The notes beneath the pieces are model-generated. The model saw nothing but the letters and a program-made list of their open reading frames with translations, searched no databases and was not told where the DNA came from. Both the position numbers and the translations under genes were made by a program. From Pyrrhoderma lamaoense (taxonomy: Eukaryota; Basidiomycota; Agaricomycetes; Hymenochaetales; Hymenochaetaceae), in the NCBI GenBank assembly GCA_002794735.1, contig NBAZ01000011.1, positions 248,001-312,000 of the forward strand: a DNA stretch of 64,000 bases, in the 5' to 3' direction. This document shows, piece after piece, positions 23,576-62,011 of the stretch (position 1 is the first letter of the stretch; each line of letters starts with the position of its first letter).

Positions 23576-23625
23576 GTTACACTCTTCTGGGCATCTGTCA
23601 AAGTTTATAGTGGCTTTAACCCAAT

Positions 23626-24234: not shown

Positions 24235-24236
24235 AG

Positions 24237-40512: not shown

Positions 40513-42006
40513 ATGGACAACTCAACAAATCCTATTGAAAACGGTCGTCTTCATCCAGGTCTTCCTATAGAAATCTTAGCAGACATATTCGAAAACTGTC
40601 TGCCTTCAAATGAAGTTCAACAAAATACGCCCCTTCATACTCTTCCACCCTTGACTCTGTCTTGGGTTTGTAAGTGCTGGCGCGAACTGTGCTTATCACT
40701 GCCGAAGCTGTGGACCACGATTGCGCTTGGACATAGAGGAACAAACCCTGAAGAGGATGTAGCTATATTAAAACTCTGGCTTTCTCGCTCCAAGCACTTG
40801 CCTGTTGCGATCAAGTTACATCATGAAGTGGACGATAGAGAGAAACCTATCCAATATGATCCAGAGAAGAAGAAAGCTTACAAAAAGGGTATGCAAAGGC
40901 TCTTGAAAGTCGCTCTTAAAAGTGTGCATCGCTGGCAAAGGTTCGAGATCCATGCCCTTGATATTTCCGTTTTTGAAAAAATATTTGTCTCACTGGTGAT
41001 TGGGGCACCCCAACTTGAAGAACTCGGGCTCTCGACAAGATATCTTGGGTTTTTTGGAGATGTCCATGTCATTGACTTTAATCTTTGTCCGGCTCTAAGA
41101 TCCGTTCGAATGCTTACACCAATGATCTGCCCGGCTACACCTGCGAACACGATGGAAAATATGACTACACTCGAGCTGCGCTTTTGTACGTCTATAGAGG
41201 ACTGTCTTCAATGGGTAGATATTTGCCCCGCCCTTGAAACCCTAACTATACGGCTGTTCTGTAGCAGGACAGATCTGATTGGTCATGAGATCGGCTGGAG
41301 GTGGTCTAACCCAAGTCAAAGTAGAATTCGTTCCTTACCCAAATTACATTATCTTGAAATGCACGGTTTCTCTTCCGACTCAGATCTAGGACCTTTGATT
41401 GATGTTCTTGATGCTCCAGCTCTGAAGACACTATACGTCAATATGTATGATATGGTAGACACGCCGTCACGCTGGACTCATGTAATCGAACTTTTAAAAC
41501 GCTCAAACCCACAAATCAAAAATCTGTCTCTATTGGGTACTCCAATGTTAGGCGAAGACTTTGAGGATTGTCTGAAGCTTCTTCCAAGTCTTGATTCACT
41601 TGCAGTTGGTTGCCCAAATGTTAATGGGACTGATGAATTATTGAAAGCATTGGTTCCCAAGTGGGCTAGAGAATCTCTCGGGTTTGAGTCTGAACCGAAT
41701 AGGATAGTAAAACAAAATGACACTGTACTATGCCCTTCACTGAGAGTACTTGATATAGCACAATCTTCCTGGGTATTGAATTCTCTTGCCTTGACTGTAT
41801 TGTCCAGAACTAAGATTTGGGATGACGTAACGGAAAGACAGGATGTAGAACGCTTAGGAGAACTTCGAGTACACGAGAAATCTCTTGAGCATGTTTTAGC
41901 AAACAAAGACGTCGCTAGATGTATAGAAAGTGGACTTCATGTATCTAGCGTTGAGCCTCCAACTTTGCTGAAAGCATATGGATCGCCTCAGCGCATTTTC
42001 GTATAG
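40513..42006 (+). CDS. F-box protein with LRR-like C-terminus
   Basis: A substrate-receptor type protein for SCF ubiquitin ligases, intronless, 497 residues. The ATG at 40513 gives an N-terminal F-box (LHPGLPIEILADIFENCLP, then LTLSWVCKCWRELCLSLPKLWTT). This Trp-rich form is the one massively expanded in mushrooms. The rest is a series of irregular leucine-rich units (PQLEELGLSTRYLG; PALETLTIRLF; PKLHYLEMHGFS; PQIKNLSLLGTP; PSLDSLAVGCP). The frame is open further upstream (40411) but has no earlier ATG. Target unknown. Confidence 0.85.
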   Translation: MDNSTNPIENGRLHPGLPIEILADIFENCLPSNEVQQNTPLHTLPPLTLSWVCKCWRELCLSLPKLWTTIALGHRGTNPEEDVAILKLWLSRSKHLPVAIKLHHEVDDREKPIQYDPEKKKAYKKGMQRLLKVALKSVHRWQRFEIHALDISVFEKIFVSLVIGAPQLEELGLSTRYLGFFGDVHVIDFNLCPALRSVRMLTPMICPATPANTMENMTTLELRFCTSIEDCLQWVDICPALETLTIRLFCSRTDLIGHEIGWRWSNPSQSRIRSLPKLHYLEMHGFSSDSDLGPLIDVLDAPALKTLYVNMYDMVDTPSRWTHVIELLKRSNPQIKNLSLLGTPMLGEDFEDCLKLLPSLDSLAVGCPNVNGTDELLKALVPKWARESLGFESEPNRIVKQNDTVLCPSLRVLDIAQSSWVLNSLALTVLSRTKIWDDVTERQDVERLGELRVHEKSLEHVLANKDVARCIESGLHVSSVEPPTLLKAYGSPQRIFV

Positions 42007-42418: not shown

Positions 42419-43651
42419 TCATTGTGATAATCCAGCAGCTCTCCTAAACCTATCTCCTATTATGGGTGCGGAAGGTCCCCCAAGGAGATGTACTACCTCT
42501 TCAGCACAGCCCCAACACGACTGCCATCCGAAACCACCATGTCCGTAGTTATATACGACATCCACCTCGCCAAAATTTGTCGATAGTGGGATTCCTTTCT
42601 CAAGTCTGAGTCCGGAGTCGTTCTCGCCACTCGGTTTTCTTGAGGGCCTAAACCCGACAACTTCAGCTTCAATCAATGGAAGCAAATCATCGACAGCGGG
42701 CTCTCGACCGGTGATTCTGACAGCAGGAGGGGCCAAAAGTGGGCAAATCTCTAAAGCTCTTTTGAGTATATCGAAAGTAGTCTCCCTTCGAGGTTCTTTT
42801 TCCCAATCACCGATCTCACGTGTGCCTCCCACGATGACTTCTCCATTGAATCTCGGAATGATGTATGTCCGAGCTCCTCCTTCGCTGCCGCCAAGACTCC
42901 CAATTTGGCGTGTCCAGCCAGAACGGCACCAAGGAGCACGGAGAAGAAGCACTTGGCCCCTGGTAGGATAAACTGTGGGATCTGAGACGCCTTCGAGTCG
43001 AAGAGCGCCAATCCCGGCACATAATATGATTGCACGTGGAGGCGGTCCCGGAAGGAATGCAAGGGCCTCTTGAATAGAGTTGAGATGCACACGGTGGATA
43101 AGCCCTCCAAGAGCGTTAAAACGCGCGAGAAGGCGTCGCAGATAGTGAGATGTCGCCATAGTCAGAGAAGTAAAAGATACTGAATGCGTAGCAAATGCGG
43201 GATGAGAGCTCTTGGGAAGAATCTTGAACTAAATCACAATGATTAGAGTTTAATTCCAAATTTTAGAAGTTAAATACGGCGAGGTACATACATCAGGAAG
43301 CCCAGCAAGAAGATCAAGGTGTTTTTCCTCTCCATCATAATACTCCGTTTGAGTCAGTTTGAGTAAGCCCGTTGGTTCGGAACCAGTCTTTTGTTCATGC
43401 TCGAGCTCGTCCCACATTACTTCAAATGTTCGCGTGTCAAGATACCGTTGACGTAAATCTCCATCTGCAGCGAAAGAAAGATGGTGAGCACCTGCTGCAG
43501 ATGAGGCATACTCTGGATCAAGTGGATCTAGCGGAAGATGGTCGGCAAGAATGTGGACCTGCGAGTGTTCTCCTGATTCAATGAGACGTATAGCAGTGGT
43601 AAGTCCGATTACACCACAACCGATAACGATTGTAGGTCTCGAAGAAGACAT
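42419..43651 (-). CDS. D-amino-acid oxidase (FAD)
   Basis: Oxidises D-amino acids to 2-oxo acids with release of ammonia and hydrogen peroxide; usually peroxisomal. There are two exons (43292-43651, 42419-43228) with a 63-nt intron (GTATGT...TAG), 389 residues in total. The Rossmann dinucleotide motif GCGVIG is at residues 11-16 (MSSSRPTIVIGCGVIGLTT). YASSAAGAHH is the usual AGAHW-type flavin contact. The C-terminal DAO signature VVYNYGHGGFGWQSCWG is complete. The last residues (AAGLSQ) are not a canonical SKL-type peroxisomal signal. It is transcribed away from the carbamoylase gene with 404 bases between the starts; TATATATATG at 43707-43716 suits this gene. In this neighbourhood its substrate is probably the D-amino acid made by the carbamoylase (inference). 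Confidence 0.9.
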
Positions 43652-44055
43652 GATGTTTTGCAGTCGTAGTAGGTTTGGCCTATCGAGAAGATTTAACGAT
43701 TAAGTGTATATATATGACACTCGTACGTTTCCATCGAAGTCGTGCCGTGCATGTTAAGGGAGGTGACTCCCCAAAGATTCAAGGGAGAATTGCCCGATTA
43801 GGGTCCCTGGCCAACGGATCATATTTGTGAGAAATTTATGCCTATCGCGTTAAGGCGCCGATGCATCCTTCGCCGCGATCTATATTCGGAGTCTCAATGT
43901 GCCTAACGGACTGAAGCCACATCGTTCCGTGTCTTCTGGCCGCGGCCATCGTCAGCTACTAGATAATAATAATTAGAGTTAAACCTGCTGATACGGTTCA
44001 GTCGTTCCTTCAGAGTCCCTGTTTTCTTTACAGTTTTTGACCTTGTCTTTGAAAA
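43652..44055. promoter_or_regulatory. Shared divergent promoter: oxidase / carbamoylase
   Basis: 404 bases between two start codons. It contains TATATATATG (43707-43716), several CGG triplets and TTCGGAGTC (43885-43893). The same 9-mer occurs once in the hydantoinase/permease promoter. CGG-containing sites are typical of Zn2Cys6 regulators, and one is encoded next door. The link is inferred. Confidence 0.5.
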
Positions 44056-45330
44056 ATGCCTCGTCTTCTCAAGGTAGCTGCAGTTCAGGTCGGCGCGATC
44101 GATCGCAAAACATCTCGTGCTGCTGTGCTTGAACGACTCATTGCACTCCTTGATAAAGCTTCAGCACAGGGAGTACAACTTGCTGTTTTTCCAGAAACGA
44201 CGTTCACTACTTTCTTTCCTCGATATATCATTCGTGATAAAGTAGAGCTTGAGTCGTTCTATGAGCATGAGACGCCCGAGAATGGTGTTGTAGACTCTCC
44301 GAATGTTGCACCGTTCTTCTTACACGCAAAGAAACTCGGAATCGACGTTAGCATAGGCTATGCTGAGAAGACACCTGACGGTGTGCCATACAACACGGCT
44401 TGCTATGTAAGCGGTTCTTCTGGTAAAGTTCTTTCCAAGTATCGAAAGGTCCATCTCCCAGGTACCTTTGAGGTAACACGCTTTTAGATCAATGCTCAGC
44501 ACATAAAGAGAATAACAAATACCCTTATTAGCCGTTTGATGAAGACCCTCTTACAACTAATCAACTTGAGAAACGATACTTTACTCCCGGGGATCTGGGT
44601 TTCAAAGCATTTCGTGCGAATTCCCTTGTTCCCCGTTCAGAGGACTCTCCCAAAACAGGTTCCCCGATCATTGGACAACTTATTTGCAATGATAGAAGAT
44701 GGTGTGAGGGCTGGAGAGTGTACGGCCTGCAAGGTGTTGAAATAATGTGTATTGGATATGTGTGTTGATTGTCTAGAAGGCGAATATCAAAGAGGCTGAT
44801 CCGCTGAGTAATTTCAGAATACAACTGCTTATGCGCCAAAACTCTGGGGTGGAGACCAAAATATCTCGAGGGAGAAGGCAAGAGAAGAAGCTATGTTTCA
44901 CCACAAATGTTTGTCGTCGGCTTTTTGCTGTGTTATTTTGAAAGCTAAACGTTTTTTAATTCTTTTCCCTAGTGGTTGTACAAGCGAATGCTTATACAAA
45001 TGCGACGTTCTGCATCACATCTGCACGCGCCGGGTGGGACGACGGGCACTTCGAGCTCATTTCTGGGACAATGATAGTGGATCCGGAAGGCCATATTGTC
45101 GCCGAAAGTGAAACAAATGAAGACGAGTTAGTTGTGGCTGAGATAGATCTGGATGGGTGTTTGTGAGTCCATCAGCTTCTCTGTCCGGAATAGCGGTTGT
45201 CTCACGGGAATAAAATTCTGATAGACAAGGAAAAGAGCGGACGTTCTGCTTCTCGAAGCACCGTCGCCCTGAGCACTACGGATTGATTGTGACGCAAAAA
45301 GGAGTGGTTGAGCCCGTCGATGGACAATGA
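44056..45330 (+). CDS. N-carbamoyl-D-amino-acid hydrolase (D-carbamoylase)
   Basis: A nitrilase-superfamily enzyme that removes the carbamoyl group from N-carbamoyl-D-amino acids, giving the D-amino acid, CO2 and ammonia. The Glu-Lys-Cys triad is visible: E47 in FPETTFTTFFPR, K131 in KYRKVHLPG and C191 in LICNDRRW. E47 and the blocks FTTFFPR, LEKRYFTPGDLGF, ICNDRRWCEGWRVYGL, IMCIGYNTT and HRRPEHYGLI match the pattern of bacterial D-carbamoylases. They differ from beta-ureidopropionases or aliphatic nitrilases. Five exons join in phase to about 330 residues; there is no frame break and no secretion signal. The gene diverges from the D-amino-acid oxidase, the next enzyme in the proposed route. 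Confidence 0.88.
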
Positions 45331-45587
45331 TGAATATTTATATTGAAAATAAGGTAGTTTTTGGAAACTGAATTATTTTTAAATAGTGATAACATTATTT
45401 GGGATTAATTATTATTAATACATAATACAATTGAATTGAATACAAAATGTATTGAAATAAGTACTGAATTGAGCAAGCGACATACTAAATAGCTAATAGG
45501 CAGTTCGCGATAGGCAACCGACAACTTTCAATCAGTCCGCCACATATCCGCTTCCCTTCGCTCTTCCTGTCCCCGTCGTCGACAACG
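45331..45587. other. Intergenic, regulator upstream region
   Basis: About 260 AT-rich bases before the transcription factor start, followed by a C/T-rich leader (45541-45580). No distinct TATA box is visible. Confidence 0.45.
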
Positions 45588-48500
45588 ATGCAGACGACAG
45601 AAGATGGCAAGCTGCTAAGACACCCTACTCACTACTTTTTTGAACCTGGAGGTCGTCCTTTCAGAAGTCGGAAGAATCGACCCTGCGGCAAGTAACTCCT
45701 CCTTCCGAACCGAATTGTTCACTCGTGTCTTACCCTATTATCCTTAATATCACCTTCTCTCTTACCTTCGCCGCCGCCGGACTATATACTTCCAGACTGC
45801 TGTGTATGTATTTCCAGCTTTTGGCTAGCCCAACTGATTTTGATGTTCTCAAATTCTAACTATAGCGTCGAACAAAAACGCGCTGCACCATAGGTCCGGA
45901 TGGCCCTCCATGCTTTGAGTGCATGTCAGTTCGCGTGTTATATGTCCTCGCAAACAACAATATTACTGAAAATAAGTGACCTTATAGACAGACAAAAAAG
46001 AATTGCACATTTGAAGAGGGTCCGCCAGTGCGCAAGAGTCGAGCTCTAGTCATCGAAAAGGCGCCCGAGTCATCTTCTGGTCCAACAGGTAGCGCTCTCC
46101 ATGCACTTGCAGCAGCAGCAGGCGTCTCAAGACCAGTTCCTACCGGTACAGGCAAAAAAAAGATTGAATCTGACACAACGGGCTTACGGTCATCGGGCTC
46201 ACCAGACGCAGCGAACGGAAATATCCATGTCAGTCCAGATTCCCTCACATTGACTATTTGTATTGAAAACTTGATTCTCACCCCATTCTTACTTATTCTA
46301 CATTATCTCTGCAGCCATCACCTCGTTCCGTAACATCGCTGGATTCAGCAGCCAGTGAATCTTACGAGCCTCATGTCCTGACTGCAATCTTAACAGATGA
46401 CCTCCTCCCTATTTCCACTGGTGCCAATCATCCGGGGACCGCTCACGCGCGACAGGTTTCAACAGAAAGTCAGAGACCAGTTTACGTAGTATTCGCTCCC
46501 AGGCCGGATGGTACGTTACTTTCATCTCAAGATCTCCTGGGTCCTGTGTTCTTAGTTATTGACATTGTTGGTATGGAACCGATCAGCTCGGACCGGTTAC
46601 GACCCGGGTGTGCAGGTTTTGTATAGGATTCGAACTCTTTTGAAGGCACTTCCGTCCTGCCCAAAGGAAGAAGTATGTTGCATGCACTAAAGTTTATGTT
46701 AGATACCATTAACTAACGCCCATGGAATAATCCGCTTGAACAATAATAGGATCTTCTTGAAACCTTCTTGTCTCATGTTCACCCAGCTTTCCCTATCTTG
46801 CCTCTGTTGAAAAATATGGGAGAGTTCCCCCCGTATCTTCTATCTGCAATTTATGCTACATCTATGAACCATCGAAGAGAGCTTCGTGAACTGTCGGCTG
46901 CTGCCTGGTCTTTTGTTCATGCTCCGAACATCCCCGAAGTAGGAATGGACAGCCCTCGTCTGAGTACTATCGCTGCTGCTTTAATGGATATTGGCTCTAG
47001 ACCAGTAGTAGATCCAAGAGGAAACTATCTTACGTTGGCTAAGGTTAGGCAATATATCGTATATAACGCAATTTTTGTTAAATTTCCTTCATTTACTATA
47101 TTTAGACCATTGCTCATGCTCAGTTACTTGGCTTGCATCTTGACCCTACAAAGTGGTCTATACCCTCATGGGAGAAGGATCTACGAATCCGACTCTGGTG
47201 GGGGCTAAAAATACACGACGCTTGGTGACAGATTTCCGTTAAACTTTGGTGACCCTGATTTTTTGATGCTTTAACTTTTAGGATGTCTTTCCTCAACTCA
47301 AGACCTTCACACATGCAAATACATAACTCGGACATCCCTCTTCCTTCTCCTAAGTCACTTGAAAGCGCAGTTGATAACCCGTCATATTCGATTTCATGTC
47401 AGGCCTTTTCGGCGTTGTGCCGTCTTTCTGAGATTGTTGCTTGCCTACAAAATGAGATTTGTACAATAAAAAGTCAAAAGAAACAGAAACAAGTCAAACT
47501 CAGCGAGATTGCTGCCCTTGAACGAGAGACGGGTGAGCTCGCAAAAAAATGGCAAGATCAGAATGCAAATCAAGGAGACCGAAAACCTGGTGTTCGTGAG
47601 TATATATACTGATCGGAAGATTAGAATTTCCGCTCATCCCGTTAATTGCTTGAATGCTTTAACCAGAATCACTTATCCTGCATGTCCTTTGCTTCCGCTG
47701 TATGCTGAGGCGTATCTTTATTGAAACCGAGTCGGGAGTCGGTGGTCCATTCCGTCCAGACCAAGATACATTGAATTTGTTTACTGACGCAGTGAATTTC
47801 ATAACAAGTTTAACAGATGAAAACCTGGACGAATTTTGGTTATGTTGTCAGTATTCCAAAATTATTTTCCCGATCACCGACCTGGGTTACTTATCTCATT
47901 GCAATCAGATTCTTCGCATGTTCTTTCGTCTTTGTTATCGTCCCTTATCCGCATTTGCCTCGTGTCGATGAATCAGACGACTAACGAAGGCGAATCTTTG
48001 TCATCAAATCGGGCAGTGACGACGCTTTCCGCGCGTACTGCCTCGACATTTGTTGACAACCAATACGCACATTCTGTAGCCTTGCATCTTGCATCAAGAT
48101 TAGTCTTATTTCTACGCAGAGCAAGGGACCAATTATCTTGGGATGTCGCTGATCCGGCTTTGCTCCGTGCCACGTCTGTCATTACCAGGTTAAAGACCTG
48201 GGATGAGAGCAAAGAGGTCACAAACATGATTCTTGCTTTGGAAGGAAAGTTTTTCAACTTCCCAGACCAGTCTATGCAGTGGCAGCAGGAAAGTCCCGAG
48301 GTACAGACTCCACCTCAACACCAGCAACAACAACAACAGCAACAACAACATCAACAGCAGCAGCATCAACAGCAACAGCAGCAACAATACCAACAAACCC
48401 AAATGGACGCACTGCATCATGCTCAGCATCAGCAAATGCTACTTCAGAGTGCTCATCCTCATGGAGGGGTAATCTCTGAGGTCGCACTGGCCTCTGCTCA

Positions 48501-48900
48501 GTTACCACCGAACTACTCACCAAACCAGGCTCACCTTCAACAGCAACACATTCCCTCGCCCCCTATCGCGCAGCAACTGTATGATGTCTCTCCATCCTTA
48601 TCTACTGCCGCGGCGAATAACCGTTCACCAACGCCACCTCAACAAGTTCCTGTAATGTATGCAGCTAGATATGGGGATAATACTACACTTCTTTCCCACC
48701 ATGCCGCCGGCCAAACCCCACCTTCTGTGGTTGAACCTTCTGGGGAACAAGGACTTGTCCCTGATTTAGGTATGCTAGGTATGGATGGTGTGACGTTCTG
48801 GACACCCTGGATGTCTAGTATAGGTTTGGATGGAAATGTAAACGTTGATGATGGGTTATCAAACTATGTTCAGGGCTTCTCTCGCCCTGCCGGTTGGTAA
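45588..48900 (+). CDS. Zn2Cys6 transcription factor with polyglutamine tail
   Basis: A fungal binuclear-zinc-cluster regulator. The zinc cluster CDCCRRTKTRC plus CFEC and KKNC has the family spacing C-x2-C-x6-C ... C-x2-C-x6-C. It is assembled only if intron 1 is GC-AG and an 8-nt exon (45796-45803) is used. The middle part is the fungal transcription-factor homology domain (LSHVHPAFPILPLL; IRLWWGLKIHDAW; NSDIPLP). The C-terminal part is Gln/His-rich with CAG/CAA repeats (about 48310-48400) and ends LSNYVQGFSRPAGW, probably an activation region. About 12 exons keep phase. It stands between the carbamoylase and hydantoinase genes, so it is the obvious candidate regulator of the cluster (inference). 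Confidence 0.85.
45796..45803 (+). other. 8-nt microexon inside the zinc cluster
   Basis: ACTGCTGT lies between TTCCAG and GTATGT. The upstream intron (45688-45795) starts with GCAAGT, the consensus of GC-AG introns. Joining exon 1 (ending TGC G), this microexon and exon 3 (starting CGTCGA at 45866) gives the zinc-cluster sequence C-D-C-C-R-R in frame. No other splice choice I tried does so. Confidence 0.7.
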
Positions 48901-49365
48901 AATTATCTCCAATGGTCTCCTCCGTTTTCTCTCTCTTTCCTAAACTCTTTTTTCCATTTGGTGTCTGTCCTCTTTGGTTAAGTCTAAAGGATAGGACTTT
49001 GTTGCCTCTGTCATTGTCGTTAACGTTGTTGTTATTGTTCTGTGTTTGTCGTTGTCGTTGTTCTCTATCTCCTCATCTGCTCTCTTGTGTGTCTGTATTC
49101 ATAGTGTTTACTACATCTCCTAAACTAAAGTAATTGCTCCGGAATAATGATTGTAACATTACAAATGTTATCCTTGATTCTTTCTTCTCTTCTTCTCTAT
49201 GGGTACAGAATGGAATAGAAGTTCTCGATTAACGCTTTTTCCCCCTTCCCCACTCTTTCCCTTAGTACCTATTAATAATAATGATGACCCTTTGTACATG
49301 ATCAACCAAAAAAACTCGGATGAAAAGATGTAAATGCCAATGCACACACACAGTGGTGACAATTA
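48901..49365. other. Intergenic between convergent genes
   Basis: T-rich 3' flank of the regulator and 3' flank of the hydantoinase; short T/G runs (GTTGTTGTTATTG) but no gene. Confidence 0.5.
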
Positions 49366-51544
49366 TTAAGAAGACTGAGTGGCTTCCCACTCCTCATCGG
49401 GTCTCCAATCACTAAGCCATTGGTTACGTGGACCAGGTAAGCTGCTCTTTCCGCGTGCGACGAACTGACCGTCGCCAGCTGATATCAGAACACTATTCGT
49501 CCCACTCTCATAGGCGACTTTCCCGCGAAGAAGCGTGTAGCGTGGCCAGTCGTTGAGCTCCATACCCTCAAAGGGAGTATAGTCGACTGCATGGTGTAAT
49601 TTATCGTTCGTGATCGTGTATGGTTTCCGGGATGCTGGGGAATGCCAGATGATTAAGTCGGCGTCGGAGCCGGGCTGGATTGTACCTTTCTTCGGGTATA
49701 AACCATCTAGATAAAAAAGCGTAAAGGAAGGAAGGAAGAGACAAAAAAGGAGGGGAGGAGATATGTTTTGTTAGTTTTTTTAACAAAGGGACAAAAGCGA
49801 GAAGAAAGGTTAGACACGGCTCGATATAAATCCGTAAAGAAGATTAGAAAAGGGGAAGGAAAGTGTGGAAAAGGGTAGTACGAAGAAGGAAGGAAAGAAG
49901 AGGGGAAGGAAAGAAAGACGTACAGAGTTTAGCGGCGTTTGAGGAGTTAAGTTCTACAAAGCGCTGGGGTGAGATCTTTCCTTTGAGTACACCCTCCGAC
50001 CAGAGAAGCGCTGTACGCGTCTCGACACCGGGAAGTCCGTTTGGAATGGTTCGGAAGTTGCCATGAGGGTTATTTTTTGGATTGTGTATCATACCGAGCT
50101 AAGACATCACAGTTATTTAGCGAGATTAGTCAATAAAGGGAAAAGGGGAAAGGGGAAAGGAATATGTATATCGAGAAGCTAGATTCTCTTACCTGCTTTC
50201 CTCGTTCGTCGTAGTAGTTTGTTGGTGCATGATCGCTAGAGTATACAGTAAACGTTCCGTTACGAAGGCCTTCCCATATACGTTCTTTATCCTGAGGATC
50301 GTTACGCAAAGGGGGGGCACAGACACATTTAGCGCCTTCAAAACCAGGTGCTCTCATAGCATCACCGCTAAGGAGGAGGTAGTGTGGGCAAGTCTCGGCA
50401 TAGATAGGGAGAAGGCGTGTTTGGGCTTTGCGAATTGTTCGCATTGAGGATGGGTCAGAGACATGCACAATAAGAATGGGTGCGTCCATGAGTTCGGCTA
50501 GTGCTATTGCACGATAAGTTGCCTCAGATTCAACTATATTTGGCCGTGAAGTCCCATGATGCCAGGGCTCAGTCATTCCACGTTCAACTAAGGACTTCGA
50601 CATCCAGTCAATCATATCTGAGTTCTAAATATTGATATAGCAAGACTTAAATATATATCTTAAAGAAATAAAGAATCAGATTATTCTGACCTCGCAGTGA
50701 ACCATAGTTGTAACTCCTGTCCTACGTGCTGAACAAAGCATATCAAGGATTTGGCCGTCTGAGAGTTTTAAGGCAGGATAAGTCATGTATATCTGAGTAT
50801 TGAATCAGATATAGAATGAGAGATAGCAATGTGTCATTTTAAGGCTTGGCAAACATAATCATGAGAAAACATACCTTCACACTGGTGATTCCTCTTTCTA
50901 CTAGTCTTGGGAGCTCGACTTTCATTTGTTCCTCGTTCGGATCGGTCACAATAACGTGGAAACCATAATCACACAGGGCACTACCTTCTGCTAGATTATG
51001 GTATTCGTCTACGGCAACATTCATAGACGTTCCCCTAGACTGTACGGCAAAGGCAACGACTGTTGTCGTCCCTCCTGCAATTGCCGAGCGGGTAGCTGAT
51101 GTCCAATCGTCAGCAGATCTTGCTCCGAGGTGTTTACCGGAACCTGGTCAGAGCAGTTGATTAGAGTCTTTAGTTTGAGTCCATAGTTTGCAAATAGGGT
51201 TTGGTAATACCAGATTGTGCAATGTGTACATGTCTGGAGACAAGATCAGTAAAGGACACTGTATAAATTGATAATTGAACTATGACATACGAATCAATCC
51301 CTCCAGGCTAGAAGATATTATTATCTGATTGAGTGACATCTTTACATTGAGATACTTAAAAATAGCATACTGTGATGTACCCCCCTTCAGCATCGATAAC
51401 TTTTGTATTGGAGCCTACAGGCAAATCATGTGCAAGAACCTTGATGATTCCATCTTTAATCCCAATGTCGCATTGTACTTCGTCTGAAGCAGTGACTACA
51501 ATACCATTTTTTATAATGGTGTCAAAATCAAACAGAGAAGACAT
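49366..51544 (-). CDS. D-hydantoinase / dihydropyrimidinase
   Basis: A zinc amidohydrolase that opens 5-substituted hydantoins to N-carbamoyl-D-amino acids, or dihydropyrimidines to N-carbamoyl-beta-amino acids. Features in order: FDTIIKNGIVVTASD (small beta domain), PGGIDSHVHIAQ (first metal His pair, built across a junction), ARSADDW and TTVVAFAVQS. Next are GITSVKIYMTYPALKLSD (the Lys that is carboxylated), MVHCENSDMI, YAETCPHYLLL and VYSSDHAPTNYYD (metal Asp), ending GTIQPGSDADLIIWHS. Exons join in phase with no frame break. One intron (49707-49923, 217 nt, C/T-rich on the coding strand) is about four times the usual length. The two activities cannot be told apart by sequence alone; the D-carbamoylase, oxidase and racemase neighbours favour the hydantoin role. 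Confidence 0.88.
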
Positions 51545-52377
51545 AGCGGTCGGTTTGAGAGGGGAACGAAGGCTGAGGATGGGAAGTAATACATACCAGA
51601 AATATTGAATACTTTGCCGGTGGCAGCCAGAACGAACCTGAACTCGGCGTAAGGACCCACTGAGCTTGATTGCGCACGTGACACGAAAGCTTCCTAACTC
51701 GACGATTTTCTTCTGCTTCTCCCTTTGTCTCCCTTCGGAGTCGGAGTGATTGGACAGGACTATCCCATTCGCCCTTTCCCGAAAAAAATATTATACTTTG
51801 TTCAACCCGAGGAGTTCCATCATTATTCATCTTGAAAATTTACCAAAAAGGTATCGACGGATCAAAACTATATTATAAAATATGCTTAGAAATCAGGGGT
51901 TATTATTATGTTATTGAATTATTGATTTGAAAGTGTGCACTCATGTGCATGAGTAAAGGTTGATGCCCGTTTCGTTCTGACTCTGTCCGTATATCCTTTG
52001 CAAGTTGTAGGTCTATCTTCAATTGGTTTTAGTGTTCGGTTGATTGGCTAGATACGTCTGTGACCTTCGGCTAGCCCTGAGCTTATACCGAGTCGTCGGA
52101 CTCAGCCTTAGTGGATCGGGAATCGTACCGTTCCTGACTCGTCCTGGACGGATTGACCGTCCCATTCTTCCTCCCGCTACTATCTTATCTTCTTTCTCGT
52201 TGGTTAGTCTTAATCACTGGGATAGCTTATCTTCTGTTCGCCGGCTTCTAGCCACCGGGGTACTCCTAACGGAACAGGGACTCGCAGAGATCGCTGTCTG
52301 TTATTAAAATAGACTCTTTTTGTCAGTTTGGTTTTCAGGATTCAGCAGACTTGAATTCCATCTTAGCCACACAAAAG
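51545..52377. promoter_or_regulatory. Shared divergent promoter: hydantoinase / permease
   Basis: 833 bases between two start codons. TTCGGAGTC occurs at 51734-51742 and is followed at once by a second partial copy GGAGT. GAGTC-GTCG-GACTC (about 52091-52104) is an inverted repeat containing CGG. The right half is C/T-rich toward the permease start. Confidence 0.5.
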
Positions 52378-54584
52378 ATGTCCTCTCTCATTCAACGTCT
52401 TCGCATCCAGAAACAGACTGCTACGTTCACTGCGTCCTCTGATGACCAAGGAAGAGGCCAGGTCATTGAAGTATGTCATGGAGTGGCTTCATAATCTAAT
52501 TGAGGACTTCTGACCTTTTTGTGTACTCTCATTTGCTTCCTTATTTTTTTCTCTCAGTGTGAACCAGACCTAGTTCCCGTCCCGCCTTTGGGACAACCAG
52601 GCAGCGAGCTAAGACGCTGGCACTGGTTCCACTTGATGGGTATGTAACATTTTTCAATTGTTGTATGAGACTACACCGTTAATCACAATTTCGTTCTCTC
52701 CACGGGCACAAAAAAACCCTTTTGTCGCACAGGTTACTGGGTTGCTGAGGCCTTTGGTGTATCTCAGTACCAGGTTGCTTCATCAGCGGTCTCAGCCGGA
52801 CTTGCTCCCGGTGCCACTATGTAAACTATAAAATCTCATGATGTTCCAGGACTTGTGATTAACTCATTTTCTGTATAGTGCTGCTGTTTTTCTCGGGCAT
52901 CTTATCATATCCATCCCTAATGCCCTCAACGGTTGGGTCGGTGCTACGTACGGTATCAACGTAAGTCTAAGCGTCGGTTAAGATACAGGTTCATGTGTAT
53001 GTCTTACATTTGTATTTCCTAGTTCCCGATCTTCTCGCGCGCTAGTTTTGGCACAAGAGGAGTTTACCTTGCCATTTTATGCCGTGCCGTAGCAGCGATC
53101 TTTTGGTTTGGGACTCAAACATATCAGGGCGGTCAATGCCTACAGGTCATGCTCCAGGCTATTTGGCCTTCATTCAAGAATTTTCCCAACCATCTACCGG
53201 AATCTGTATGTTTATTATACACACGCAACGGCCTTTACACATTATATTGACTAAAATCATTTGTCATTAGGCAAGTGTAACATCTTCGATGCTTCTATGC
53301 TTTTTCGTGAGTTCATAAGCGCTTCTAGCTGTAACAAAAACTCTGACCCTCATGATATTCTAGATTTTCTATCTTATTCAACTGCCCCTACTTTGGATTC
53401 ACATGTCCAAGTTACGGTACCTGTTTCTAGTAAAGGTCATCATTATGCCTATCTTCGGGTTTACGTTATTTGGTATGCTTCTTCTACCTCCCTTTTTAGA
53501 TATATCCAGTGCTTATTTGCTTCCGCAATCTCCTTCTCCCGGTTCCAGGCTGGGCTGTTGGTAGAGCCCATGGATTTGGCCCAATTTTTGAAAAGGGGAC
53601 GTCAATTACCGATGGTCGTCCTGTCGCGGTTGTCTTCTTCTCTGCAATGACTTCTGCAATCGCACCAAAAGCTACATTAGCACTCAACATCTCTGATTTC
53701 ACACGATACGCAAAGTCTCCCCGAACAGTCGTATGGACGAATTTATTCTCTTTGTCAATTCTTGTTACTCTTTGTGCTATTCTTGGTGTTGTCGTGACTT
53801 CCGCTGCCGAGGTGATCTATGGTGTAAGCCCATAATTCCGTTCCTTGGATTCTTCTTCGATCTCAATTTAACATGTATTTGCGCTACGCTTTTAGGTTAG
53901 CACTTGGTCTCCACTCCAAGTAAGTTCTCTGATGGAGAATCGAGCTGCACAGTTCTTTAGTGCTTTCTGTTGGGCGCTCAGTGTAATTGCGACGAACATC
54001 TCCGCAAACTCTACGGCAGTGGCAAATGACCTCATGCTCGTCTTTCCGGAATATGTCAATATCCGCCGTGGGCAATACATCTGTGCAGTTCTTGGACTTA
54101 TCACTATCCCATGGAAGATCCAGAACTCGGCCACTACATTTACAAACTTTCTTGGTGGCTATAGTATTTTCCTTGGTCCCGTTGCTGGTTGTCTCATCGG
54201 ACACTATTGGATTGTCTCAAGGCGCCATCTTGATGTGCCAGGATTATACCGCCGGGGCTCGGGATGACACCCTACTGGTACACTGCAGGTTGGAATTGGC
54301 GTGCCGTGATTGCATTCACATTTGGTGTTATACCTTGTTTACCTGGATTCATCCGCACAGTCGGAAGTATCAAGAGTATACCGGTAGGCACGACTTATGT
54401 GTATAGTCTTGTCTGGCCTGTCAGCTTCTTCGTTTCTATTGTCACGTATACCCTCCTCAGCAAACTGTTCCCGCACAACTACGTCCGTTCGGCACGGACA
54501 AGCTCGAGCGATGACAATGCTAGTGTTGATAAGTCAATTTCTGAAAAGGGGGGCAACTTTCATATTGCTGTTCAGACGGCTTGA
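52378..54584 (+). CDS. NCS1-family permease (hydantoin/allantoin/uracil type), one frame break
   Basis: A 12-TM sodium- or proton-coupled nucleobase transporter. The family includes bacterial Mhp1 (hydantoin) and fungal uracil, allantoin and purine permeases. Visible family blocks are RRWHWFHLMGYWVAEAFG, NALNGWVGATYGINFPIF, RASFGTRGVYLAILCR, FWFGTQTYQGGQ, ALNISDFTRYAKSP and VFPEYVNIRRGQYIC. Exons keep phase down to about 54262. There one reading frame stops (PGLYRRGSG then TGA) and the next resumes at once with MTPYWYTAGWNWRAVIAF, the expected TM11-12 continuation. One missing G in a G run would explain this. Either the permease is truncated by two helices or the base is an assembly error. 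The gene diverges from the hydantoinase. Confidence 0.85.
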
Positions 54585-54941
54585 AGTATAGATGTTTTTC
54601 TCTCTTTTGTTCCTTGGAGTATGTGTGTTTTGTATACGATGATTCTTTGTTTGTACTTCCTGCAATTGTTTGGTTACTTACTTTACTGGTTTAAGTTCTT
54701 CTTTTGTTACACGATGGGTGAAAATGTTTTAGGGTGGATGACTGGATGGACGTGACTTGGATTTTGTTATTATATGTGTATATTTATTTTAATTCAGTAA
54801 TTGTTATATGTAACGGATATATTGCTACTGATAAATTTCTGGTTGCGTTGCGAATAACGGTATACATGCATTGAAGGAATCATGTGAAAGTACAATTGCA
54901 AAGAGTAAATTGAATGGAAGTCAGAAGCAGCCACCACCTGA
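54585..54941. other. Intergenic between convergent genes
   Basis: T-rich 3' flank of the permease and 3' flank of the WD40 gene; nothing else seen. Confidence 0.5.
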
Positions 54942-57900
54942 TTACTGCCTTGCCATTACTGGGGGCGGAAGTGTCAGATATCGACCCACCGACACGGAGG
55001 ATTCACCAAACCGGTTCCGTCTGTCATGCACATCAAAACGATTTACACGCGGATCTGAGCCAATCAGTGACTTATCAGACTGAATGGACCAGACCTTGAT
55101 CGACCCATCTTCGAGTCCGAAAGCGAACATGTAAGGCACCGAAGGACTTGCAGCGAAACTGATCGGAGCCTTCATCTTCGCGTCATCATTTGGTGTAGAA
55201 AATATGTGTAGAATCTTATGACGGAAATAAGTTTGTTCAAATAGGGTGACCTCGACTTTAAAAGAGAGTCAAATACAGAACCGAAAATGATTAGTAGATA
55301 CATTCAGTATTACTTACATCCAGAAACCCCAATAACTAGTTTACTGTCTTTACCGAAGAAATTGAGAGAGTCCCATGAATCCTTTTCGTGCTTCCCACCT
55401 ATAGACTTTCCGTTCGATAATTTGAATTTATCATCATCTAGGGTCACTAGACCCCAGAAGTCATTTCAAATACTTGTGCCGCTCGCTGAGAGAAAGGGTC
55501 AATAAGACATAGTATAAAAAATTCATGTATTGACGATACCTTACTACCATGCAATAAAATTGTGTTCGTAGAATACGAAACTGAAAGAGATGTCTGATCG
55601 GAATACACATCGACCTGCCTATCGAAGACTGAGATAAATATGTATAGCTGAAGCACAGATGGAGGCACACCTCTGGATAGATTTACTCGCTATTGAGTAT
55701 ACTGGCAAGATAATTTTTTCATTAGTCGTCTAATACAGACGAACTATGTACTTACTTTGTACTTGAGCCGATTCAGTACCTGTTTCAGAGTCATTGTCGG
55801 TGAGTAAGGGACTTGTTAAGCATAGTATATTCTGGTCCCCGTAGAAAGATACATCACGGATATGTCTATTTCCGAGGTCATAGGAATGTAGTATCTGTTA
55901 GTTGTTGATGTTAATCATATTTATCATGCCCAAGTGGGAAGGTATACCTCTCCACTTATACTCTAATATAAAAAGTTAAGCGTATTAGTAAGCGATTATC
56001 ATAGAGTGAGCCTATTTACCAATGTCATAACTCTATTCTTTACAGCACATACGAAACCTGTCACGTCATAAGTAACGTATTGAAAGAGGCGAAAGGTAAA
56101 AACTACCTGCAAAATCAGGTATCCAACTTGCTGATTGGGCAGCTACAATAATTGTTGAGATTGATGTCGCTTCGATCAACGGTTCGTGGTTTATCTATTG
56201 TTAAGACGGTCAATAAATTTGTAAAAAATGTTTTACTTCATACTTCATACTGACATGTAGCAGTTTAATGTCCCATATATGAATCATTCTTCCCGTTCGA
56301 ACTAATAAGCAGTCACCAGATGGCTTCCTAAGAAATAACATGAGAATAAATGATATAGTTACTAGAGTAAATAATTGCTTGGAATTTTACCATATAATCT
56401 GTCTAACAGGGTCGTCCCTGGGTAATTCAAGGGTCTTTTGTAAGAAAAATGATCTTGCAAGCTATCAACGCCAATGATGAGTAAAATTCAGTTATCAAAG
56501 TATGTACATACCATCTTTGTCACGTATATAGTGATGACACCAGAACTACTTGATATCAGACTATATCTCGTGTAATTTTTCGCTGAATGTACATACAAGT
56601 AAGTAACCAGAAAAACTCCTGAAGGGCTAAATTGAAGAGTGTTCTCAAATTTGGAGGTTATATCCTATTGGCGAAGACATGAGAGAGAGATAAAATAACC
56701 ATCCAAATCCATTGAAAAATCAATACCTTTCCCTCACTATCGTTGAGAAGAGCATGCTCCGACAAATTTAGGTCTGAGTTTGAGTTAGCCTCCGATTTAG
56801 ATAGTAGGTTACTAGAATCTGAGGAGACACTGTCTACTCGATATGGTCTCCTGTCATATGTTCTAAGAGGAACAGTCGAAGTCACTACATGATCTGAGAG
56901 CACCCCAGTATTGGCTCAACTATAGGTCAGAAAGGGATCAATTTCAGATAATTTATGAAAACCAACCAAGTTCGATGTCTCTGTGGCGGTTACGGGCCCG
57001 GGGTATTGAGGGAAGCTTTACTTGTCTCATTATGAGCGTAGCAATAGCTATAATACCATTGAAATATGCTTTCCAAAATGATGAATAGATTGATTTGAAA
57101 GAGAGTCAACCCTCGTACTGTCTAGTGTATCCAAAAGCCCCTCCCAGGTATTGCTTATCCGATCTTTCCACTTCTCAAATAACAGTCTTGATGTCAAAGC
57201 AAAGATGATGGCTGCGAATGTCCCTGCAAAGATGGTCGGAATTGCTGCTGCAAGTGTACTATGTTTCTATTTTTTGGCTTAGAAGGCCGACAAATAGTCA
57301 ATATATCAAACTTACACTTTTTCCGGAAGACTGAATGAAAGAAGACATAAGCCGACGGAAAAGGCTGCCACCGCAGCTACTAGCGTGAGAGTAGGTCCAT
57401 TCTTGAGTAATGCGTGGGCCCAAGGTGGAAGTGATTTATCAGGTTGTCGCCTATGATTAATGATTTTAGAAAGGAGATAGCTACGGATAGTGGAGATACT
57501 CACACATGTGATTGATGCCAAGTCATTATTAGCAGACTAAAGACAGCTGAAGCTGTACTAAAAACTAGTGATATCAGCCATAGTGTATTCATCGCATGGC
57601 TAAGCACCGATATATCATCAGAATCGGCTGCAGTTATTTGAAGAGTTGTTGCGGTGACGCTTGAAAGGAATGTAGCCACAGTAGTAAGTAAGAGATAATG
57701 CTGAGATGTAAATTCTTGAGATCTGTGTATTGTAGGTATTCCTAACGGGATGGTTATTTCAGTGCTAAATATCGTGTGGATCTTGAACAAAAATACCTTT
57801 TCCGTCAATGTCGGAAAGCTCGTGCAATAAGCCGTCAAAAAGATTGAACAGATCTTTCCAAACAATTAAGTCTAGATATCCATCCACTGGTATTTGTTTG

Positions 57901-59102
57901 TTCCCGATCTGACCTTCGTAAGTAAATTCAGCTGTATTGTTTTACATGCTACATGATCCTGTTCACCATATTCCACATCTAATCTGTCTTTAATCAACTG
58001 AGGACGTCCAGAAATGTCAATTTCCAGCTCAATGAGCCAGCATTGTGGGGCTTAACTCACTTGTGAGTATGACTTGAGTCTATCTAAAACGCTGAATAGT
58101 ACTAGATTATACACCCAAGCTCCTTAAATGAGTTTTTCACTTCAACCATAACCAAGTCCAAGGTTGCTAGAGCTTTAATACATGATTTTACGGCTATATA
58201 ATGCTTTGTGAAACATTGAAACTTGGAGGATATATGCATAATACTTACACATGAAATTACTACCCGTCGGCCAGCTTTGGTAGGAGATTGCATCAGAAGT
58301 AAAGCGGTTAAAGCTTGAAGATTTCTCACTCTATCTCATTCAATGCGTTCTGCACAGATTCCAGAGCCTTTGCTGTTCTCCCTCCCCCACCCAGACTAGT
58401 AAGCTGGCTACGAATGTGCAATAGCTGAACGTAATCGAGTAAGCTTCTAGAGATCTCTGTTTTACATAATTTAAATTCTTCCCGTAACTCACCCGTTGGT
58501 CTAGCTTGTCATGAAGACTAGGATAGATGTAATGACACAATGTTGATATATAGTATCATATTATTTTTATAGGACACCTTACGTTCTGAACTTTTTGTAA
58601 TAGTGTGGCCTCTCTTCATCTTTTTCAACTCTTCTTTCCAAGTTATGGGTTGGATATGAGTTTATATCGATTTCCTCCTCTTTTTCAACAGTTGCCCGTG
58701 TCTCGTCCTTACAACATGAATGACGAGATGAATCTCTAACAAGGGACCAAAGTTGTAAAAGATTGTGCAGATCCCTCTCCTGATTAGGTGTGAGCTTCAA
58801 GCGCTCATTGGCATCTTTGCTTGGGCTGAGCGGAGGGGAGTTGTTACTTAAGATGCCTAAGAACGTTAACTATTGGTCAGGAAAGAAAGTGTTTCCACCG
58901 ATTTATTGAACAAGTGCGTACCAGGAGATTCAAGCATAGATTCAAAAAGCGAGGAATGTAACCAAGATTGGACCCGAGCAGAGATTAATAGGGGAGGAGC
59001 TGGAGAAAACTACGTTTATTAAAGGACAGGTCATTTGGTCTTTCTACTGACCAGATTTTGAGGATGAGAGCTGTGCACCTTAGACGTGATTAATCTCCGC
59101 AT
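54942..59102 (-). CDS. Membrane protein with WD40-like C-terminus, possibly decaying
   Basis: An intron-dense minus-strand gene. From ATG 59102 the first exons give RRLITSKVHSSHPQN and a helical region (SWLHSSLFESMLES; DLHNLLQLWSLVRDSS). A coiled-coil stretch (GGGGRTAKALESVQNALNE) and LQALTALLLMQSP follow. At least three hydrophobic segments lie between 57850 and 57220 (YLLLTTVATFLSSVTATTL; LWLISLVFSTASAVFSLLI; PTLTLVAAVAAFSVGL). WD40-like blades come last (QFSPSGVFLVTYLY; LVRTGRMIHIWDIK; YMFAFGLEDGSIKVWS), ending at 54942. Near 58400 and 58335 the frame appears to slip twice without an intron. Exon borders between 55200 and 56650 are only partly resolved. The order helical/TM/WD40 resembles uncharacterised mushroom proteins. 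Function is unknown and no link to hydantoin metabolism is visible. Confidence 0.5.
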
Positions 59103-59641
59103 TAGAATTTACTCTCCCACCAAGATAATAGTCTCAGTAGCTCACAGCCACTAAAATATACATTACAGGCAGTCTCCGATACAGTCATTCATCTTAGTGC
59201 GAGAAAAAAGAAGAGTGTTACTAGATTATCGTGATCTGTGCGTGATGGGATCAACTAGGGCTGGAAAATACCTATCGAAGGCGGCATCTCACTACTCTAG
59301 CTGGGTGGCTCGAGAGTGTCTGTACAGGTTTACACAGCTGTGTTCGGTTTATCCTCAAACTCCTACTCTGGATGCTGATTGCTGAAAGTTCATGAAAACT
59401 ATAAAGCTTGCAACTAATACACCGCTTATGTAGATACGATAATTCCGAGATCCGGCAAGAGATTTTGTTACATAATACATACTTACTAATGACGTAAAAG
59501 CTTCCGTCTTCAATTCAATCAATTCCAAATTTTGCTGCCACCGCATATATTATATAGATCCACGCAGAAATACCAGTACAGATCGTGATATACTACACAA
59601 ATAGAAATACATTATATTTGTATTGCCCTGTCTACACAATT
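59103..59641. other. Intergenic
   Basis: Holds the upstream side of the WD40 gene and the 3' side of the aldolase gene. A 62-codon ORF (59197-59385, +) shows no motif. Confidence 0.45.
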
Positions 59642-60839
59642 TCATTTCAAGAATGCACCATTCGTTTCTTCGACAAGGAGGCGGTACTCTGGTTGGAAGT
59701 TGATGTAGGTGTTCTCCCAATATTGTATAGTGTTTGCGGTGAATTCTGCATCCTGAAGATGGAAATATGAATAAGCAGGAAGGAAAAGGAAATAGGAGAC
59801 TGATAACTAACCTCTTTATCGATGACACGCTTCTTTAGTCCGTTAGCCGCCGCTGCCTCGACCATTAGTTGCGCACGACATTGATTCTCAAGAGCAGAGA
59901 ATAGATAAGCTGCCTCATCTACGGTTTGACCAACTAAGATAAAAGGGGTCAGGAGATATATTCACATAAAGATACGGAGAAAGCGGAGCCTACGTGTGAG
60001 TAAACCGTGATTTTGCAAAATGCAAGTCTTGTTCTTCGGCCCAAGAGCCTCGGCGATTCTCTTTCCTTCTTCAGGGGCGAGAACAATACCACCAAAGTTC
60101 TTATACACGGCAAGGTTATCATAGAAGAGACAGCTATCCTGAGTGAGTATATCAATTGGTTTCCCGAAGACCGACCAAGACTTTCCGTGGATAGAATGGC
60201 AATGTGCAATGGCTTGTACTTCAGGCCGTGCCTTGAGACCATATGATGATACATTAACTTTCAAGATACTACGCCCGAAACACAAAAAGAGGTTACCTTA
60301 TGTATAGAAGAGTGAATGTGGAAGCCAGCCATGTTGATAGGTAATTGAGCACCATGTTCAGTGACATAACCGTCTGGGCTGACTAAGACCAAGTCTGAGA
60401 CCTTTATCGAAGAAAAATGGACAGCGAAAGGGTTCCTAAGTTATATGTTCGACTTGATTCTACCTAAAAGAAAAGCTTTCGAAAAACGTACATCCAATAA
60501 TGGTCTGGCCAAACTGGATCACGGATCGTGATGTGGCCAGAAACACCCTCACCATAACCTAACTTCCCCCAGAATCTGAATGCAGCTGCGAGATGTGCCT
60601 TGTACGCGATAAAGTGGGTGGCTTAGACTTAATGATACAAAATATGTAATTACCTTGGCCCATTCACGTTCTGCATACTTGTCGCCTTTGAAATCAGGGA
60701 TTGTTTGGAGCCGCACAGTTCCTGCTTTATTGCTTCTCCAAGTACGCTCGAGAGGATTCTTCGCGAGTTCATTAACGTTCTGTTTGGGGTCCGAAGGGAC
60801 AGAGGGAGCAGTTAAAGTCAGAGTACCAGTAGTAGACAT
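59642..60839 (-). CDS. Class II aldolase/adducin-domain protein
   Basis: A zinc-dependent aldolase-fold enzyme of about 300 residues. The family cleaves or epimerises sugar phosphates and related hydroxy acids. Seen in order: LAAAFRFWGKLGYGEGVSGH with ITIRDPVWPDHY, VSPDGYVTEHGAQLPINMAG, the metal His pair in AIAHCHSIHGKSW, and ILQNHGLLT with the third His. The C-terminus is YWENTYINFQPEY. Five or six exons keep phase. Fungal members of this type are mostly annotated without a substrate. The gene diverges from the hydantoin racemase with 394 bases between the starts, which ties it to the cluster by position. A role on the carbon skeleton left after deamination is possible but unproven. Confidence 0.82.
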
Positions 60840-61233
60840 TGGTGCGAATTGGATTGTGTATGTATGTATAAGCTAGGCAAGGTATATATGCTGCCTAGAT
60901 AAGTAGTGTTGGACGACGGCCAGTATAGTACTTGAGCTTAATATCTCATGATTGCATCTCAGAATATTCCATGCCGACATATACTCGATACTAATCCAGG
61001 GACTGGAACTGGGTACTCATTCCAGTCCCCACCGGGGGATACGGGTGGTCCTATGTCCAGAGTCCCGGCTAACCGTGTTGCTTGCCACGGGGAAAGATAT
61101 AGGAATTCCGGGGAAGATAGTCTCAGAGCCTCTTCCTCCGGCGGCCCCGGTTTCCTTTTTCGGAAACAACATATAGGCATAGTCATTGTCAATAGTAAAG
61201 GGCAGATATCGTGTTCTCCATCCACGCAGAGCC
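60840..61233. promoter_or_regulatory. Shared divergent promoter: aldolase / racemase
   Basis: 394 bases between two start codons. It carries a perfect 10-bp inverted repeat GGGACTGGAA (60999-61008) / TTCCAGTCCC (61020-61029) with an 11-base spacer, midway between the genes. Several CGG/CCG-containing steps (ACCGGGGG, TTCCGGGG, CCGGCGGCCCCGG) follow between 61030 and 61155. Confidence 0.5.
60999..61029. repeat. Perfect inverted repeat in the aldolase/racemase promoter
   Basis: Arms GGGACTGGAA and TTCCAGTCCC are 10 of 10 complementary with an 11-base centre. Dyad symmetry at the middle of a divergent promoter suits a dimeric regulator site. Confidence 0.7.
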
Positions 61234-62011
61234 ATGTCAGATTTAAGACTACTTGTTATTAATCCAAACTCGACACAAAGTATTACGGATGGTTTGCAGG
61301 AATCACTGGATCCGCTCACACCTCCCAAAACTCAACTTTTCTATTTTACTGCGCCTCCCCATGCACCTGTAGCAATCAGTAATATAATCACAGCAAACCA
61401 AACAGCGACGTACTGTTATGAAGAGTTATTTAGAACAAACGCAATCGAAAAATATGATGGTTTTCTTATATGCTGCTGTCGGTTCATGATTCTAGATGTC
61501 TTTTCAAGTAGCATATACTGACTCGTTAATTTCAGTCTCTGACCACCCACTTATTCACATGCTAAGAGAACGCTTAACAGAGATCCAATCATCGAAACCC
61601 GCTGTCGGAATTTTTGAAACGGGGGTCGTTCATGCAATGCTAATTGGAAAGCGATTCGGTGTTGTCACTACAGGTACTGGAATTAAAAATACCCTCATTT
61701 CTGGTATGCGATCTTTCCTTGGAGCAAATTCCGAGAGGTTTGCTGGAGTAGTTACCAGTGGTCTCGGTGTTGTTGAATTGCGTGAAGGCGACCCATCTCA
61801 TATTGAAACACGGATGATAGAAACTTCAGCAAAAATGGCGAGTATGGGAGCGGATGTCATCATTTTAGGATGTGCTGGAATGGCAGGCATGGAAGAGCTT
61901 GTCAAAAGAGGGGTCCGAGATGCTGGTCTAGGAGAGGTAAAGGTTGTAGATGGTGCCAAAGCGGGTGTGGAGATGTTAGCGGGGATTGCAAGATTAGCAA
62001 AAACATCATGA
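61234..62011 (+). CDS. Asp/Glu/hydantoin racemase
   Basis: A cofactor-independent two-cysteine racemase of 239 residues; yeast Dcg1 and bacterial hydantoin racemases are in the family. The N-terminus has LLVINPNSTQSITDGL. The first catalytic Cys region, GFLICCFSDHPL (C80/C81), is built across a 58-nt intron (61478-61535). The second is VIILGCAGMAGM (C194). GIFETGVVHAML and FGVVTTGTG are family blocks. I choose the ATG at 61234 because the family motif starts four residues after it. It would interconvert L- and D-5-substituted hydantoins so that a D-specific hydantoinase can use both. An allantoin racemase role is the alternative. Confidence 0.88.

Follow-up and report, generated by a model that had tools for sequence, protein, structure and literature searches.

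The hydantoinase process, found in bacteria and used in industry, leads to D-amino acids. The yeast DAL cluster combines a permease, a cyclic-ureide hydrolase, and the racemase-like DCG1; it uses an allantoinase and contains no carbamoylase or oxidase. Here, we analyzed a 64-kb stretch of the Pyrrhoderma lamaoense genome (30.65 Mb in 72 contigs; contig 11, positions 248,001 to 312,000), hereafter the window, which carries a likely hydantoin-degrading gene cluster with a predicted acidic D-amino-acid exit, a variant of the bacterial hydantoinase route. A preliminary description of this DNA had proposed a nitrogen-scavenging system for 5-substituted hydantoins or related cyclic ureides. The enzyme route and its linkage in other fungi support that proposal in part, but the exit would be narrowed to D-aspartate or D-glutamate, and one proposed member, a class II aldolase, is left unsupported.

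Several described systems resemble the cluster in part. On the Sulfitobacter dubius plasmid NZ_CP085147.1 (L027), a carbamoylase, a racemase, and a dihydropyrimidinase/hydantoinase are annotated in a row together with a transporter, like the fungal set; however, the transporter is of the TRAP type rather than NCS1, and the racemase is of another sort, aligning poorly with the fungal racemase and lacking the context of its first cysteine. Neither this operon nor 80 other bacterial carbamoylase loci (mostly Bradyrhizobium and Acetobacteraceae, with a neighborhood stretch examined per locus) contained a D-aspartate oxidase. A racemase-family gene lay nearby in 34 of the 80 loci and a hydantoinase-superfamily gene in 22, the latter with identities of 23 to 33% apart from one of 45% that adjoins its carbamoylase (L134); NCS1 and aldolase genes, like the oxidase, were found in none. 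With DAL, the cluster shares a permease, a cyclic-ureide hydrolase, and a racemase-like gene, but DAL holds an allantoinase, whereas the allantoinase-like gene of P. lamaoense lies on contig 10, outside the cluster. A further parallel is the yeast PYD2/PYD3 reductive pyrimidine route, as the cluster hydantoinase resembles the solved dihydropyrimidinase 2fty; that route, however, employs an M20 enzyme where the cluster has a nitrilase-type D-carbamoylase. Finally, ErtD of bacterial ergothioneine utilization, a hydantoin-5-propionate amidohydrolase, would likewise open an acidic hydantoin toward glutamate, but the cluster hydantoinase scores only 216 bits against its model (NF058539), far under the cut-off of 650.

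On the oxidase side, the D-aspartate oxidase of Vanrija (Cryptococcus) humicola is described, in the sections of the source consulted, as specific for D-aspartate and induced by it (PMC7831105). Hydantoin genes go unmentioned in the consulted sections of that paper and of two others (PMC8708985 and PMC10006432). No description of a fungal hydantoin cluster of this kind was found in the literature searched, with subscription papers and preprints lying outside its scope.

Results

Linkage of the core genes in other fungi

Linkage was counted for the carbamoylase, hydantoinase, and oxidase (the core trio) in all species found in at least two of three lists of 120 matches each. It was read from locus tags differing by 5 or less or from equal size of the longest contig in the protein listings, the latter being a mere proxy for a shared contig that is weak at megabase size; in K. 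dejecticola and K. sp. CBS 9459, second oxidase genes that are not neighbors were omitted. Among the matches listed, at least one linked core-trio pair was present in 25 of 28 basidiomycete species and in one of four ascomycetes. Locus tags linked 17 of these species and contig size alone linked 9, and all three genes were tied in 8. Tags of the same prefix lay within 5 for the carbamoylase and oxidase (9/10), the carbamoylase and hydantoinase (5/6), and the oxidase and hydantoinase (5/5). The carbamoylase-oxidase pair was the tightest, with tags within 3 in 9 of the 10 comparable species, from two subphyla. Because the linked species include Hymenochaetales, Tremellomycetes, and Microbotryomycetes, linkage as a whole extends over two basidiomycete subphyla. 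The recurrence in related fungi on which the preliminary description hinged was thus found for these three enzymes, but nothing links the aldolase independently.

The nearest relatives of all three enzymes among the matches listed came from the Hymenochaetaceae Coniferiporia weirii and Phellopilus nigrolimitatus (71 to 84% identity). In the hydantoinase tree, the linked basidiomycetes placed there formed one 20-row clade (100/99), separate from ascomycete, Suillus, Tricholoma, Gloeophyllum, and bacterial hydantoinases. The Suillus, Tricholoma, and Gloeophyllum enzymes cluster with those of ascomycetes, a placement suggestive of transfer or of a second copy of old origin. Coniferiporia has an adjacent carbamoylase and oxidase (P0001 and P0243), with no hydantoinase among the 120 matches listed, and Phellinidium has only an oxidase (P0242) among those listed.

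Fusion proteins are the strongest sign that the predicted racemase, carbamoylase, and hydantoinase serve one route. Five of the 120 carbamoylase matches listed are carbamoylase-racemase fusions (P0077, P0080, P0084, P0089, and P0109), and one of the 120 hydantoinase matches is a hydantoinase-racemase fusion (P0239); their sources are ascomycetes where named. The P. lamaoense racemase is 30 to 35% identical to the racemase domains of these six proteins, with both cysteines aligned. It scores 156 bits against PF01177 (cut-off, 31), a family represented by this one gene in the genome.

Organization of the cluster

Gene models were spliced by hand with GT-AG introns and one GC-AG exception in the regulator. 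The seven genes all lie inside positions 42,419 to 62,011 of the window, and each was assigned to its family by Pfam (CN_hydrolase, 142 bits; DAO, 109; Amidohydro_1, 85; Aldolase_II, 154; Asp_Glu_race, 156; Transp_cyt_pur, 304; Fungal_trans, 43). In order, they and the regions between divergent pairs are as follows.

42,419 to 43,651, minus strand: D-aspartate-oxidase-type FAD oxidase; 2 exons, 389 amino acids (aa); His56, Arg227, Tyr242, Arg257, Arg314
43,652 to 44,055: divergent promoter region, oxidase/carbamoylase; 404 bases; CAGGGACT at 44,014 (minus)
44,056 to 45,330, plus strand: predicted N-carbamoyl-D-amino-acid hydrolase (carbamoylase); 5 exons, 341 aa; Glu47, Lys131, Cys191, Arg194-Arg195
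45,588 to 48,900, plus strand: Zn2Cys6/Fungal_trans transcription factor; about 11 exons, one GC-AG intron
49,366 to 51,544, minus strand: D-hydantoinase/dihydropyrimidinase-family enzyme; 8 exons, 510 aa; His65, His67, Lys161, His193, His249, Asp326
51,545 to 52,377: divergent promoter region, hydantoinase/permease; 833 bases; CAGGGACT at 52,275 (plus)
52,378 to about 54,584, plus strand: NCS1-family permease; 9 exons modeled; frame break near 54,255
59,642 to 60,839, minus strand: class II aldolase/adducin-family protein; 6 exons, 300 aa; route membership uncertain
60,840 to 61,233: divergent promoter region, aldolase/racemase; 394 bases; CAGGGACT at 60,997 (plus)
61,234 to 62,011, plus strand: Asp/Glu/hydantoin racemase; 2 exons, 239 aa; Cys81 and Cys194

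The families and positions first proposed for the seven genes were borne out by Pfam and by the spliced models. Their description as neighbors holds in that all are in this stretch, but they are not all side by side, as two other genes on the minus strand lie between the permease and the aldolase: WD-repeat-like frames at 54.9 to 57.0 kb, of which the piece tested gave no match in a Pfam scan, and a DUF6535 gene with an exon at 57.5 to 57.9 kb. The racemase starts 6.6 kb past the permease, and hydantoinase, carbamoylase, and racemase are all inside the window, as in the bacterial hydantoinase operon. Outward of the racemase come a sugar transporter and then a GH7 cellobiohydrolase-family gene (L003:262-816 and 2,282-3,037), and the cluster is therefore taken to end at the racemase. 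On the other side, a 536-codon open frame without a Pfam match (40,396 to 42,006, plus strand) adjoins the oxidase gene. Farther away, at 20,549 to 25,235 on the minus strand, are the genes of a Ty3-type long terminal repeat retrotransposon, one gag-like and one encoding a reverse transcriptase/integrase with a chromodomain.

The predicted hydantoinase and carbamoylase

The hydantoinase scored above the cut-off of TIGR02033 (494.5 bits versus 393.25) and below those of the PRK13404 subfamily (614.2 versus 647) and of the allantoinase model TIGR03178 (232.4 versus 357.85). It keeps every position of the metal-ligand set of these enzymes (HxH, a carboxylated Lys, two His, and an Asp, at the positions listed above).

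For the carbamoylase, the top eleven PDB matches were all N-carbamoyl-D-amino-acid hydrolases (213 to 216 bits), followed at a distance by an N-carbamoylputrescine enzyme (51 bits) and by 3ivz, labeled nitrilase/beta-ureidopropionase (43 bits). The catalytic motifs of such enzymes are the Glu-Lys-Cys triad and the Arg-Arg after the Cys; all five residues listed above are kept, and 11 aligned relatives show no variation in these motifs. No NCBIfam model was matched at or above its cut-off, a protein search (E 0.001) found no second relative in the same genome, and an initial scan of the genome collection with the carbamoylase as single query gave no relative. The enzyme is thus predicted to be of the D-carbamoylase kind and not of the beta-ureidopropionase kind. 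Families, catalytic residues, and fusions agree with the hydantoinase, N-carbamoyl-D-amino-acid hydrolase, and racemase assignments made previously.

The oxidase resembles D-aspartate oxidases

The oxidase matched the D-aspartate oxidase 9vpf best among PDB entries, with 380 bits versus 113 for the best D-amino-acid oxidase (1c0i), and it shares 53% identity with the D-aspartate oxidase of V. humicola (P0266). In a 47-row tree, all linked oxidases fell with the V. humicola enzyme in a 40-row clade (100/100), outside which stood seven other agaricomycete oxidases. Three oxidases of the other clade in Coniferiporia weirii have consecutive tags (M0805_002277-002279; P0356, P0358, and P0320) and apparently form a tandem array. 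The cluster oxidase is, by prediction, of the fungal D-aspartate-oxidase kind and not a general D-amino-acid oxidase. The first assignment, to D-amino-acid oxidase, was right as to an FAD oxidase of the DAO family but too broad as to its kind. The D-amino acids first proposed as products are likewise narrowed, as the route would end in D-aspartate or D-glutamate if all of the genes belong to one route.

Human D-aspartate oxidase holds D-aspartate by His54, Arg216, Arg237, and Arg278, according to the sections consulted of PMC8260693. Among the linked oxidases, His56, Arg257, and Arg314 are present in 21 of 21 and Arg227 in 19 of 21. These four probably match the human acidic-substrate residues. 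The putative acidic-side-chain residues His56, Arg227, and Arg257 are thus present, but Arg257 is not diagnostic for D-aspartate use, because the V. humicola enzyme, reported to be specific for D-aspartate, has Met257.

Permease, regulator, aldolase, and promoters

An NCS1 permease and a Zn2Cys6 regulator do stand beside the route genes, as first described. The permease has as its only PDB relatives entries for the hydantoin transporter Mhp1 (56 bits) and scores 204 bits, below the cut-off, against the NCBIfam allantoin permease. Its frame breaks near 54,255, and the remaining C-terminal region continues in another frame; 82 formal intron possibilities were tried and none keeps the conserved stretch. 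The break reflects a real lesion, an intron that escaped recognition, or an error of assembly. The sole Pfam match of the regulator, Fungal_trans, was obtained on its first 531 aa, and its Zn2Cys6 motif was read, and its last exon placed, by eye. The aldolase lies above the NF004855 cut-off (309 bits), and among solved proteins it is closest to TqaM (231 bits) and then NovR (174 bits); with no independent link and no counterpart near the 80 bacterial carbamoylases, its proposed membership in the route was not upheld.

Each divergent promoter region holds one copy of the 8-mer CAGGGACT, and these three are its only copies in the 64 kb. Since one or more shared 8-mers also turned up in 60 of 500 shuffle sets, this is a hint only. 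A CGG-N17-CCG spacing present in all three regions was set aside, as shuffling produced one or more spacings of this sort in 50 of 500 sets.

Discussion

The cluster probably takes up 5-substituted hydantoins and degrades them, likely via D-aspartate or D-glutamate, yielding a 2-oxo acid together with ammonia that would serve the fungus as nitrogen, an account in which we place modest confidence. We infer its direction, substrates, acidic specificity, regulation, and permease cargo as follows. The NCS1 permease would import the hydantoin, with hydantoin-5-acetate and hydantoin-5-propionate as candidate inputs, and the racemase would interconvert the two enantiomers. Judging from its family and residues, the hydantoinase would open the D form to an N-carbamoyl-D-amino acid, from which the carbamoylase is predicted to strip the carbamoyl group as CO2 and ammonia. 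Oxaloacetate or 2-oxoglutarate would then arise as the oxidase deaminates the acidic D-amino acid and releases a second ammonia, and the Zn2Cys6 factor would switch on the cluster genes.

Several observations weigh against this account. Core genes are unlinked in Meredithblackwellia, Neolentinus, R. graminis (where they come from different strains), and three ascomycetes, as are the Pseudohyphozyma hydantoinase and the K. shivajii oxidase, the only one of that species among the matches listed. Apart from the Met at position 257 of the V. humicola enzyme, the cluster oxidase scores the human D-aspartate oxidase and the human D-amino-acid oxidase equally, at 60 bits each, and a search of the linked hydantoinase and carbamoylase clades for charged pocket residues of their own gave no clear pointer to acidic substrates. 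The permease has a broken frame, two other genes set the aldolase and racemase apart from the rest, and the only tie of the aldolase to the route is its divergent orientation to the racemase. A urocanase, which would supply hydantoin-5-propionate from histidine, had no match in the genome; hydantoin-5-propionate would therefore have to come from outside. Histidine and ergothioneine were accordingly set aside as internal sources, the ErtD models also being far below cut-off. Lastly, the top PDB match of the hydantoinase is the dihydropyrimidinase 2fty (460 bits), with the D-hydantoinase 1nfg second (356 bits). Because of this order, and because TIGR02033 is matched but PRK13404 is missed, hydantoin and dihydropyrimidine use by this enzyme are not separable from sequence alone.

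It is unlikely, though worth serious attention, that the hydantoinase route is general for hydantoins, such as those of damaged or carbamoylated amino acids, and that the D-aspartate oxidase is a neighbor handling other D-aspartate under shared regulation only. Most ascomycete carbamoylase and hydantoinase relatives listed come without an oxidase, while the 120 oxidase matches listed are from basidiomycetes where named; the oxidase is missing from the 80 bacterial loci as well, and the pocket comparison gave no acidic signature. The close pairing of carbamoylase and oxidase in nine of ten species of two subphyla argues otherwise, as does their divergence over 404 bases here.

We regard it as improbable that the hydantoinase is the fungus's dihydropyrimidinase and that the cluster degrades pyrimidines reductively. 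Its top solved relative is of that kind, and it is the sole dihydropyrimidinase-type enzyme in the genome, its one further relative there (35% identical, contig 10) being read as an allantoinase. A possible M20 beta-ureidopropionase is also encoded on contig 10, scoring 299 bits to a deacylase, 295 to N-carbamoyl-beta-alanine amidohydrolase, and 273 to beta-alanine synthase. However, no dihydropyrimidine dehydrogenase was found in the genome: no gene combining DHO_dh and Fer4_20 was seen there, with only the best candidates scored, and DHO_dh matches fell on contigs 18 and 1 and the single Fer4_20 match on contig 7. A DUF1688 gene of the other uracil route, which we take to be of the URC4 family, is present, and a D-carbamoylase, a racemase, and a D-aspartate oxidase play no part in the reductive route.

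Action on allantoin in the manner of yeast DAL, with the racemase as an allantoin racemase, is very improbable. The best solved relative of the racemase is indeed an allantoin racemase (57 bits), and the NCS1 family includes allantoin permeases, although here below cut-off. The hydantoinase, however, falls short of the allantoinase cut-off, a separate allantoinase-like gene exists on contig 10, and the fusion proteins connect the racemase with carbamoylase and hydantoinase. That the genes are chance neighbors without a common task is scarcely credible despite the interrupting genes, the unlinked aldolase, and the broken permease frame, because PF01177 occurs at one gene, the enzymes have few relatives in the genome, and linkage in 25 of 28 basidiomycetes, together with the fusions, contradicts it for the core trio.

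In sum, the proposed route from hydantoins through D-aspartate or D-glutamate may reach beyond this fungus. We put forward, tentatively and at somewhat less than even confidence, that basidiomycetes keep an ancient linked acidic-hydantoin pathway with D-aspartate oxidase as its last enzyme, whose D-aspartate or D-glutamate is made in the cell by hydantoinase and carbamoylase. If true, such an in-cell supply would place metabolic steps upstream of the fungal D-aspartate oxidase and account for the retention in fungi of an oxidase specific for D-aspartate. A fungal version of the hydantoinase process, linked in two subphyla of basidiomycetes, would amount to a nitrogen route without a description in the literature searched, and it would offer eukaryotic D-hydantoinases and D-carbamoylases, some of them racemase fused, to enzyme users. 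The origin of the substrate of fungal D-aspartate oxidase thereby becomes a question that can be addressed by gene deletion and feeding.

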